Source: Nymphaea colorata
Taxonomy: Eukaryota; Streptophyta; Magnoliopsida; Nymphaeales; Nymphaeaceae
DNA: 64,000 nt
Direction of reading: 5' to 3'
Assembly (NCBI RefSeq): GCF_008831285.2
Contig: NC_045138.2
Coordinates: 10,304,571 to 10,368,570, forward strand
Below the pieces are notes generated by a model that was not told where the DNA came from, did no database searches, and was given only the letters and a program-made list of their open reading frames with translations. This document shows positions 32,993 through 53,530 of this stretch, one piece after another (positions within the stretch are counted from its first letter, which is position 1; each line of letters starts with the position of its first letter). A program made the position numbers and the translations under genes.

Positions 32993-33395
32993 TGTCAACG
33001 GTAACAAGCAAGACGTTGAGGACCCAGATCAAAACAGTTCCAACCTGGTAAAAGAAAGGAATTGACAATGACAGAAAGATCTCATCTATTGGAAATCAAT
33101 ACAAGCCCAGCCAATTAAAGAAAACAGCTAGCGTTGAAAGCAAAAAATTGAAGTATTTTTCAAACGAGCAAAACGAAAACGGCAGTCATGATGTAAATGC
33201 TGATTTTAAGTTATATACCTGTAATTATAATGATGAAGAGGCAGTACATATAGAAACCTCACAACTCACATGTGGTAAAATGAGTGTGAACTAATTTATA
33301 ATAGAGGATATAAGTGACACATTTAGCAACCAAACCTCTTTAAATGATTGCATATCTTTCTTAATTTGTTAGTTTTCTTGCCCTTACTCTTAACA
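32993..33395 (+). repeat. 5' LTR of copia-3
   Basis: It starts TGTCAACGGTAACAAGC and ends CTCTTAACA. It shares CAAAACAGTTCCAACCTG and a GATGTAAATRCTGATTTTAA block with the 3' LTR at 53152. The end is placed by the primer binding site that follows. Confidence 0.7.
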
Positions 33396-33411
33396 AACAA
33401 TCAGAGCTCTT
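33396..33411 (+). other. Primer binding site of copia-3 (decayed)
   Basis: AATCAGAGCTC just after the LTR resembles TATCAGAGC, complementary to the 3' end of initiator methionine tRNA, the usual copia primer. The gag start codon lies about 100 bp downstream. Confidence 0.5.
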
Positions 33412-33514
33412 CTCCACAAGGTGACTTTTGTGATTGTGTGCTGTAAGGAGCTTGGGTTTGCTTCTTCTGTTGATTCTTTGGATCTTATTGCCTGGCGTTA
33501 GGACATTATTCTTT

Positions 33515-33670
33515 ATGATGGCAACTACAAACTCTTCTTTGTCATCTTGTCGATTGGCAGCACTAGGATAAGCAATATTTCACTTCCCTTACCTCCTGCT
33601 CTTACAAATTTTTTTACTGTCAAATTAACATCAGAAACTATTTGCCTTTTGAGAGTCAGCTTTTTCTATT
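33515..33670 (+). pseudogene. copia-3 gag N-terminus remnant
   Basis: The frame opens ATGATGGCAACTACAAAC and gives MMATTNSSLSSCRLAALG before a TAA stop. In another frame it continues SLPLPPALTNFFTVKLTSE, which matches the start of copia gag proteins (ILPLPPxLTxFVxVKLxxxNYLLW). The match ends near 33670, where the CACTA element or deletion begins. Confidence 0.65.
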
Positions 33671-33903
33671 ATTAATTTGGTATGATCTTCATATGAGTTT
33701 TGCTTTAGTTTGTATTTTAGTCGTATAATTTAAGTGCTTTCTTTGTTGATTTTATAGAGTTGAAGTGTAATTTTGTGTTAGAGTTAGCGAGTATTGAGTT
33801 CTTTGTAAAAAAAAAAGTGTTGTGGGTTCTATGTGATCAGATGAAATGCTTATTATAGAGTGCCATGTGGGTGCCATATGTATCTTCCTCCTTCAAGTCA
33901 TGC

Positions 33904-50681: not shown

Positions 50682-53110
50682 TTTTTAATGAGCACCAACT
50701 TCCTTTTCAAAACTATTGAACCTTAACTCCACCAAAGCCAATGACAAATCTGCCCATTCACATGCCTAGTCATGGCTGTACATCCTATGAAACTCACCCA
50801 CCATCAGATTCTCTTTCTCTTAATCCAACCACACCAGCATTGATATCTCAACCTTCTTCACTCGATCCTCCACACATTAGACAACCCATTCACACCCTTC
50901 AAATCATTACACGTTCCATGACTGAAATACATATACACAAAATTTTTTCATCGATTTTCTCTAGACCAGACTTTAACCTTGCTCATCAACTGTTCAATGA
51001 TTGTAACCCATGGCAAATGAGTGACGCTCACAAGTAACTCAACAACACATGGACTCTCGTTTCACCTTTGGCAAATCGCAATGTTGGATTTACAAAATAA
51101 AAGGAAAAGTTGATAGGGCCAATATTGAATGCTAAAAAGGTCGACTTATGGCTCAAGGCAATATACAATAGTTAGACATCGACTATTTTGATTAGTTTAG
51201 TCTGGTTGTCAAGCAAACCACCATTTGAACAATTATATCTCTTGCGATTAGTTTCAAATGGGTGAATTTGATAATTTGATGTAAATATTGCATTTCTCAA
51301 TGAGGACCTCCAAAAATAATTTACATGGCTCAACCATAAGGCTTTGAATATGGATTTAATCTTGTTTGCAAATTAAACAAGGTTATATATGGGATCAAAC
51401 AGGCTCCTAGAGTTTGGTCTCAAAAGCAAAGTACTCCTACTCTATGGCTTTGCTTTATCCAAGACCGGTAGATCACTATCTATTTTCAAACAATGAGATA
51501 TTTTGTATTATATATTAGTTTATGTTGATTACATGTTGATGACATTCTGTTGATTGGAAATAGTTCAAGGTTCATACATCTCTTATCTCCAAATTGGGAT
51601 TATATTTGCTCTTAAGGACTTGAGTGTTCTCATTTTTTTTTCTCAGTATGAAGGCTCATTAGACAGCTAATGGTCTTCTCCATTCTCATCAACACAAATG
51701 TGCCTCAAATCTCCTCAACAGAGATAAAATGGCTATCTCCAAACCATAGTTGGCAAACCCAGCAATCTGGCTCAGGAATCACCCAAGTCGGACCGGGATT
51801 GTTCTCTTATTGGGTCACACGTCGTTAAGACCCTGATCCACACCAAGACTCAGCCGAGTCTGGCACAACATGAGTTTTGGCAATATAAAGTTAAATTAGT
51901 GATAAAAATTTATTTTAATCTAGTTTTTGTCTTCAATCGATATGAAAAGACCAAAAAAGGGACGAGGAAGCTGAATTGGTTGGTTTAATCTACTATATAT
52001 ATATATATATATATATATATATAAAATCCTTTATGGAGGTTGGACCATTTGTTGGGCATTTTAACCCCAAACCAACCTTGTCCTTGATCTCTCTCTCTCT
52101 CTCTCTCTCTCTCTCTGATGCCCCAAAGGTGGTCGGTCGGGCCATCGGCGACCTCCCAACATTGGAGAGAACAAACTTTTCTTTTTGCATTTTAATGATT
52201 TCACCAAGTATTTAAGTATTGAGTAGTTAATTAGATCATTTGGTGAAAATTAGAAAGAAAAAGAGAGCTACATGCTGGTAAGTCAGTTGCATGTCGATAG
52301 TCTGATTCCCACTATTCAATCTGGCTAAGTCATAGAATTAACCCATTGACCCGCTGAGCCGGTTAGCTGCCGATCTGGGTCTGATTCCGGAGTTTGCCAA
52401 CTATGCTCCAAATCCATGTCGACGCCTATAGGAATGCTAAAATCTCTTGGTCAAGGATACAATACCTCATATGATGATCCAAAATGCTATCAGAGGTATT
52501 TTCGGGCATTAAAATTTGCCATTTATATATTGTCCTACTCATGAACATTGGGCCACAGTGAAATGCATATTGAGGCATATTAAGGGCACTCTACACTGTG
52601 AACTTCTTCAGCCAGCTTCAAATTTGACTATTCATGCCTTCTAATGCCAAATTGGGCCAGATGCCCAGACACACGAAAGTCTACTGGCAGGTATGCAGTA
52701 TTTCTTGGGCCAAATCTCCTCTCTTGGAGTACCAAGAAAAAAAAAACAAAAAAAACAAAAACAAAAAGGCACTGTGGCTCGTTTTGGCTCAAAAGCTGAC
52801 TACAGGTTAATGGCCAATACTGCCATCGAGCTCATCTGGATCCAAATAACTCCTGCAAGAATTACACCTCACCATTCAAAACACCAACTATATGCTATGA
52901 CAACTTCAGTGCAACATATATGTCTGCCCATCCGATTTTCCATCAAGAAAGCAAGCATGCTGAATTGGATGTCCACATGTTCAGACATTGAATTGCTAAA
53001 AATCATTTATAGGAGCTTCATTTGGTCTCTTCCTGCCAAATAGCAGATCGACTCACTAAGCCTCTACCAAAAGCATCCTTTGAACACTTGAGGTTCAAAT
53101 CAACGGTCTA
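50682..53110 (+). pseudogene. copia-3 integrase end, RT and RNase H remnant
   Basis: Directly after the hAT-like element the copia frame resumes with the last integrase residues. The Ser/Pro-rich linker follows (to about 50940), then the RT start (NTWTLVSPLAN, about 51048), CKLNKVIYGIKQAPRVW (about 51369-51419) and a duplicated, disrupted YVDD region (about 51520-51556). RNase H gives [19 protein letters not shown] (about 52786-52840). The end ADRLTKPLPKASFEHLR is at about 53044-53094. Stops and frame changes are scattered throughout. It is the right half of the element whose left half ends at 41716. Confidence 0.85.
51993..52117. repeat. (TA)n and (CT)n microsatellites in copia-3
   Basis: A 30-bp TA run (51993-52022) and a 29-bp CT run (52089-52117) lie within a non-copia stretch between the RT and RNase H parts (about 51750-52400). 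That stretch may be a further small insertion; I cannot define its ends. Confidence 0.8.
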
Positions 53111-53140
53111 AACTCAATGTTAAACCTAGAAGGTTGAGTT

Positions 53141-53151
53141 AGAGTGCGGGG
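53141..53151 (+). other. Polypurine tract of copia-3
   Basis: AGAGTGCGGGG sits directly before the TGTCAGTGG start of the 3' LTR, where plus-strand synthesis would be primed. Confidence 0.6.
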
Positions 53152-53530
53152 TGTCAGTGGTTACAAGCAAGGGGATTCAAATCGTAGATGTCAAGATCTT
53201 GTGGATTAAAACAGTTCCAACCTGATAAAGAAAGGAGTTGGCATTGAGAGCAAAATCTCAGCTCTTAGAAACCAATATCAGCGTAGTCAATTATAGAAAT
53301 GAGCTAGCACTGAGAGAAAAATTTTCAGAAGAGAAAACAAAGAGAAGTGACAATAATGATGTAAATACTGATTTTAAATTGTTCGTAACTGTAATGCTAT
53401 GTCACAATGGATAATGATGTAAATACTGATTTTAAATTGCATGTTCGTAACTGTAATGCTATGTCACAATGGTATGGGTGTGGGTAATTTCGTAAATCTT
53501 AGACGGCAGTACGTTGAATATTATATATTA
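53152..53530 (+). repeat. 3' LTR of copia-3
   Basis: It starts TGTCAGTGGTTACAAGC and shares AAAACAGTTCCAACCTG and other blocks with the 5' LTR at 32993. It carries an extra tandem copy of a segment of about 60 bp (53354-53471, with ATGATGTAAATACTGATTTT in both units). The last part has drifted, so the right boundary is approximate. Confidence 0.7.

Follow-up and report, generated by a model that had tools for sequence, protein, structure and literature searches.

The window analysed here, a stretch of 64,000 nucleotides from Nymphaea colorata (C1:10304571-10368570), contains a nest of transposable elements built around one Ty1/copia retrotransposon, a single locus that covers about a third of the window (Table 1). 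An earlier note, made from the letters of the window, had assigned nearly a third of it to a single copia element interrupted by CACTA and hAT-like insertions, plus a solo long terminal repeat (LTR) as a third level, and our results support this framework and show most of the coordinates given there to be exact. That picture was nonetheless incomplete, as it did not include two further insertions, the loss of part of copia or the host-gene pieces carried by the two DNA transposons. We are highly confident that the locus is an old copia element with four insertions, namely a CACTA element, a gene-fragment-bearing hAT element (Pack-hAT), a miniature inverted-repeat transposable element (MITE) and a repeat of about 515 bp, and that the Pack-hAT in turn holds the solo LTR of a Ty3/gypsy element. 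Relatives and empty sites were sought in the genome (407.8 Mb, 783 contigs), with which the copia parts were compared one by one rather than as a consensus.

Table 1. Features of the nested locus, in window coordinates (TSD, target-site duplication; TIR, terminal inverted repeat; RT, reverse transcriptase; LRR, leucine-rich repeat).
Feature	Position	Strand	Remarks
Copia 5' LTR	32993..33402	+	TG start exact, end approximate; matches 53152 onward, second half matches 54004-54134
Copia gag start, degenerate, continuation lost	33403..33717	+	33420-33689 is 71% identical to C3:9556839-9556553; end by eye
CACTA element	33718..40997	+	Transposase domains 34248-37473 (+); second-ORF-like (open reading frame) region on - by eye; 5' end not found
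Captured beta-1,3-glucanase fragment, X8 domain, internal deletion	37883..38165	-	Pfam, 2jon, C8 gene
Copia integrase part	40998..41716	+	C4 and C3 relatives; holds left hAT TSD at 41709-41716
Non-autonomous Pack-hAT	41717..50681		8965 bp including guest LTR; 8-bp TSDs
Captured segment A	42093..43718	-	C2:18.958-18.960 Mb, 92-94% (match region 42090-43718)
Captured segment B	43717..44252	-	C2:0.891 Mb, 87%
Captured segment C, interrupted by guest LTR	44249..50009	-	C1:8.680-8.682 Mb, 90-91%; LRR exon 44534-44606
Guest solo LTR, Ty3/gypsy family	45813..49401	+	3589 bp, TG...CA
hAT-like right terminal part	50387..50681		Common to many copies
Copia integrase end and RT	50682..51744	+	RVT_2, C4 relative E=3e-28; begins with right hAT TSD copy
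hAT-type MITE	51745..52405		661 bp, TIR 14/14, TSD CTCCAAAC/CTCCAAAT 7/8
Copia RT end and RNase H, purine-rich tract	52406..53151	+	Other window copia, C4 relative
Copia 3' LTR, first part	53152..53487	+	62-bp tandem duplication at 53353-53472
Insertion of ~515 bp in 3' LTR, repeat-family member	53488..54002		Left end at 53488 in 21 of 77 listed matches
Copia 3' LTR, second part	54004..54134	+	End approximate

As in Ty1/copia elements, the two copia LTRs lie in direct orientation and start with TG; both begin TGTCA (32993 and 53152), and a purine-rich tract precedes the second. Aligning the two LTRs, a check proposed in the earlier note, gave a match far above chance, with a local score of 138 compared with a maximum of 33 among 500 dinucleotide shuffles. 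The 3' LTR end placed at 53530 had to be moved: nothing upstream of 53530 corresponds to the second half of the 5' LTR, and homology resumes beyond the ~515-bp repeat at 54004, running to about 54134 (score 43, with 32 for the next-best position, or 85 against 63 with softer scoring). Over both parts, the LTRs are 76% identical (317 columns, Kimura two-parameter distance 0.292), which would correspond to an age of about 11 or 22 million years at 1.3e-8 or 6.5e-9 substitutions per site and year, rates that may not be those of this plant. At the end of the 3' LTR, a 79-bp unit is present three times with 100% identity (54120-54359), which is either a very recent event or an effect of assembly.

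Between the LTRs, integrase precedes an RVT_2-type RT on one strand, the arrangement of Ty1/copia elements. Pfam located RVT_2 at about 51082-51576 (E=9e-19) and returned no copia family for the gag, middle-integrase and RNase H pieces alone. The window holds another copia on the plus strand (3558-7215) with longer open frames and gag, gag_pre-integrs, integrase, SH3-like and RVT_2 domains. This copy, at about 3.5-7.2 kb, served as a yardstick for integrase, RT and RNase H, matching the nest in the integrase core (41182-41376, E=0.10), RT (51088-51612, 2e-11) and parts of RNase H (0.018); the integrase and RNase H matches are weak, and the matches listed up to E=10 include numerous chance hits whose E is comparable or higher. 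Two relatives elsewhere, both on the minus strand, matched the nest in order. The copy at C3:9.5506-9.5573 Mb covers LTR, gag (33420-33689, in a gag-like stretch that adjoins the LTR of that copy) and integrase (41262-41667, 69%), and the copy at C4:17.2237-17.2264 Mb covers integrase (41026-41703, E=4e-28), RT (51136-51640) and RNase H (52522-53140), and contains neither the hAT-like element nor the MITE. Because the C3 and C4 relatives overlap in integrase, the left and right parts of the window's copia belong to one family, and the finding that would have spoken against a single element, namely parts from different families, was not made. Pfam, the second window copia and the two relatives agree that the domains on either side of the insertions run in order and on one strand, as originally described.

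Could the left and right parts instead stem from two independent insertions of the same family, such as a 5' and a 3' fragment, on either side of unrelated DNA? The ~1.2 kb of copia missing between 33717 and 40998, as well as LTRs that are only 76% identical, would fit such a history. We consider it very unlikely, as the parts are ordered on one strand, no internal copia part is seen twice in the nest, and both insertions for which two ends were found (hAT and MITE) are bounded by TSDs. Moreover, when the copia flanks are joined across the hAT site they read 21 residues through the junction, with stops only further out, and the joined 48-bp flanks of the MITE, which lies inside the RT, read 31 residues without a stop. 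Several observations tell against one continuous copia element. No 5-bp TSD could be read, because the 3' LTR end is not sharp, and the pentanucleotide preceding the 5' LTR is not repeated at the estimated 3' end; the gag part has no Pfam match and depends on the single C3 relative; in the fetched stretches no relative carries all parts (C3 without RT and RNase H, C4 without LTR and gag); and, once hAT and MITE are allowed for, the intervals in C4 exceed those of the window by 156 and 44 bp.

The hAT-like element was confirmed to the base at the position and length first given for it, and measures about 5.4 kb without its guest LTR. Like other hAT elements it has short TIRs and an 8-bp TSD, TTTTTAAC/TTTTTAAT, identical at 7 of 8 bases. 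Its left terminal part (41717-42092, 376 bp) gave 44 listed matches, the window's own included, with 40 of 815 candidates scored, and in 6 of 7 other copies cut, the match with this part stops at 42092. The right part, from about 50387, is also common to other copies among the matches listed (40 of 962 candidates scored), and 8-bp TSDs flank all three further copies whose ends were read (8, 7 and 8 of 8 bases identical). Pfam detected no hAT transposase on either strand of 41717-47600 and 48601-50681 at E up to 0.1, or in a laxer scan of the minus strand of 41720-44002. A hAT transposase encoded elsewhere in the genome would have moved the element.

The inside of the element consists of DNA that also exists outside it, with gene domains near two of the matching places, as is characteristic of a Pack-hAT. 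Three captured segments meet at sharp junctions, and the remainder (50004-50392) has weaker matches of 77-87%. The segment B locus (C2:0.891 Mb) has a NIF phosphatase domain (E=1.9e-40) on the corresponding strand, at a distance of 1.4 kb. Stretches paralogous to segment C occur at C2:16.59 Mb and C5:15.37 Mb in addition to C1, and a further one, at C3:2.29 Mb (93%), has an LRRNT_2 domain on one side and a kinase domain on the other, again on the corresponding strand. Within segment C, a 73-bp exon encoding an LRR repeat is flanked by AG and GTAAGT. Taken individually, short-query matches to this repeat have E values no better than about 9, the strong whole-chain values being sums over many repeats, and the LRR case therefore rests also on the exon between splice sites and on the C3:2.29 Mb paralog. 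A loosely reversed control peptide gave no hits, and a PDB search with three minus-strand frames of 41717-45806 gave one weak LRR match (E=0.16, at the LRR exon) beside unrelated hits at E 0.22-0.36. Judged by these homologies, the cargo includes predicted receptor-kinase-like sequence. Pfam found no family on the minus strand of either the C1 locus or C2:18.956-18.962 Mb, and no gene domain was found near the segment A locus.

The C1 locus is likely, though not proven, to be the donor of segment C. Weighing against this assignment, a 124-bp stretch with weak similarity (71%) to a hAT terminus is found at 0.5 kb from the C1 segment, and the locus could therefore be a decayed relative of the element instead of its donor. 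That the hAT-like element is itself an ordinary autonomous hAT, degraded until its transposase can no longer be recognized, would be consistent with its TIRs and 8-bp TSD. This is hardly credible, since segments A-C, which make up some nine tenths of the interior, are 87-94% identical to host-like loci. Two of the three donor-like loci showed no hAT terminus and the third only a weak one, and Pfam detected no hAT transposase in the ranges scanned (41717-47600 and 48601-50681 on both strands).

Two related hAT copies bear on how the Pack-hAT was assembled. The copies at C11:7022793-7025048 and C7:18661145-18664455 share 44132-44252 and 44147-44252, respectively, at 96-98% identity, and show no match to the neighbouring cargo pieces in the fetched stretches. 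Both diverge from the window at 44252, beyond which the C11 copy, by eye, continues like the C2:0.891 Mb locus. This pattern of sharing suggests stepwise capture, by which the inside of the Pack-hAT would have been built from at least three separate host loci.

The guest within segment C was likewise confirmed to the base. It is bounded by a perfect 5-bp TSD (TACGT, 5/5, at 45808-45812 and 49402-49406), and its site is empty at all three paralogous loci inspected (C1, C2 and C5), where the target is present as a single, slightly different copy. A small two-LTR element was considered and rejected, because BLAST (E up to 0.01) found no internal direct repeat more than 1.5 kb apart. All 40 listed places (of 1818 candidates, 40 were scored), the window's own included, extend to the 3' end of the guest LTR, and four listed pairs of LTRs of this family lie 12.3-13.8 kb apart in the same orientation (about 12.4 kb in three). 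In 3 kb inside one such pair, Pfam found RVT_1, RNase H, RVT_3 and G-patch domains. The guest is thus a solo LTR, one LTR between TSDs from an abundant Ty3/gypsy family that has copies with two LTRs and pol elsewhere. We take this domain set to be typical of Tat/Ogre-type Ty3/gypsy elements, with which the family shares RVT_1, the RT RNase H, RVT_3, a nearby G-patch, a 3.6-kb LTR and the LTR spacing of about 12.4 kb seen in three of four pairs, a provisional assignment made from a 3-kb piece of one copy. Recombination between the two LTRs, which had been stated as the last event, most likely left the solo LTR, although in contrast to its boundaries and TSDs this step is only inferred.

The CACTA element is the least cleanly delimited part of the nest. 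Transpos_assoc, Transposase_21, DUF4218 and DUF4216 domains follow each other on the plus strand in three frames (34248-37473), a tnp2-type set that identifies a CACTA (En/Spm) element. Matches of related copies stop near 40997, with a CACTA-type end there in 3 of 5 relatives (the remaining two comprise an unclear case and one read from the wrong side), and copia integrase resumes thereafter (by eye; the C4 match runs from 41026). On the 5' side, no CAC start in 33381-34150 pairs with 40997 together with an equal 3-bp flank. The best partner of 40997, at 33561, agrees at 9 of 14 bases with unequal flanks, and the only listed equal-flank pair (34009 and 37606, 9/14) ends inside the CACTA element. 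Of four 3'-side motifs tried, one 9-mer recurs at the left with at most one mismatch, inverted, at 34039. Measured on one C3 relative, about 1235 bp of copia are missing here. That CACTA entered the copia element is supported by its transposase domains and 3' end, but a clean insertion is not, as the search yielded no 5' end and copia lacks about 1.2 kb at that side. Loss of the CACTA 5' terminus together with neighbouring copia in one deletion would explain these two gaps. Against this reconstruction stand a left boundary (33718) that, for want of a 5' end, was set only by eye, and a ruler that is a single copy and may itself be changed. The CACTA element might instead have inserted cleanly, its 5' end having decayed within 33718-34247 and copia having been deleted there beforehand. 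Old termini can decay and 33718-34247 is unassigned, but the failed CAC pairing (9/14 at best) and the single, inverted recurrence of a 3'-side motif make this unlikely.

This element, too, carries captured host DNA. An X8 domain was matched by Pfam (E=5.3e-8, or 2.3e-6 in the long frame) and by 2jon, a solved beta-1,3-glucanase (E=9.5e-5), and the fragment is 85-86% identical to C8:20841802-20842261, whose middle spans 177 bp, compared with 4 in the window. A reverse-transcribed copy with a lost intron was rejected, as the missing 177 bp read, by eye, as coding sequence in C8, pointing to an internal deletion in the fragment. A second CACTA copy (C1:10.3748-10.3769 Mb) shares 37779-39987, X8 fragment included, at 86-87% identity, such that capture seems to have preceded the separation of the two copies. 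The sister's second-ORF region with the X8 fragment (C1:10374848-10379228) starts about 6 kb past the window end, and weaker transposase-region matches (67-69%) adjoin it in opposite orientation. The window's CACTA also contains a 156-bp direct duplication (38790-39108, 94%), both copies of which map to one place in the sister, which seems to hold the unit once.

The two insertions missed in the earlier note, which had only CACTA and hAT entering copia, are both short. With its small size, TIRs, 8-bp TSD and lack of a gene, the 661-bp insertion in the RT (51745-52405) is a hAT-type MITE; Pfam matched no transposase in 48601-53600 around it. The repeat in the 3' LTR has right ends at 53989-54003 among the matches listed (40 of 221 candidates scored), and TIR pairs returned by a search within it were judged to be due to chance.

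Taken together, these observations outline a partial order of events. An old Ty1/copia would have inserted on the plus strand, from 32993 to about 54134. CACTA would have entered the zinc-finger region of its integrase and the Pack-hAT a site further along integrase, while the MITE would have entered the RT and the ~515-bp repeat the 3' LTR; a single deletion would account for the loss of ~1.2 kb of copia along with the 5' end of CACTA. The Pack-hAT cargo would have received a Ty3/gypsy element, of which recombination most likely left one 3.6-kb LTR. Copia is the oldest component and the Ty3/gypsy element came after assembly of the hAT cargo, in agreement with the sequence of events proposed before, but CACTA and hAT lie side by side and their mutual order cannot be read, nor can that of the MITE and the ~515-bp repeat relative to them. 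The position of the guest within captured sequence fits entry after the hAT had inserted; entry before the Pack-hAT moved here is a possible alternative. Identities rank consistently with this order, at 76% for the copia LTRs, 87-94% for hAT cargo and donor-like loci and 86-87% for the two CACTA copies.

Outside the nest, a GC-rich stretch holds an open frame (26477-27475) with a PCC domain (E=4.9e-22), presumably an AHL-type plant gene. Large inverted and direct repeats occupy 57412-64000 (57412-58087 against 58256-58946, 97%; 58942-59878 against 62329-63270, 82%), with a weak RVT_2 piece at 61630-62136. Rfam gave no matches over the whole window, and ARAGORN gave none.

All parts of the nest are of known kinds, and neither nesting nor gene capture is unusual in plants; the nest is readable, not surprising. 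In PMC8903248, Pack-TYPE elements (Pack-hAT and Pack-CACTA) are non-autonomous TIR elements carrying gene pieces, with cargo from several loci and examples of acquisition by both CACTA and hAT. The window's Pack-hAT resembles these, and differs from those described there in its ~5.4 kb without the guest and in being host to a solo LTR; the window's CACTA keeps its transposase domains and so is a CACTA with captured cargo and not a Pack-CACTA. For wheat chromosome 3B, PMC4290129 reports 30,199 reconstructed nested insertions of up to 8 layers and 140 CACTA gene captures. Nested insertion and CACTA gene capture are shared with our locus, a single nest of three levels in a genome of 408 Mb. The CACTA elements with captured fragments in PMC8978399 have Transposase_21, DUF4218 and DUF4216 and host fragments as here, with the fragments upstream of ORF1, whereas the window's piece lies downstream of the transposase domains.

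The locus accounts for about a third of the window, now with corrected boundaries, and its useful part is the Pack-hAT. The host-gene strand of the chimera has a GA-rich, 5'-untranslated-region-like start and an LRR exon with intact splice sites. We suggest, as a tentative possibility, that a record of stepwise capture can be read here, that the genome may hold ancestors or intermediates of the chimera, and that its host-gene strand may be transcribed. With donor-like loci, junctions, sister copies and guest empty sites all in one genome, the order in which a hAT element acquired its gene fragments becomes testable.

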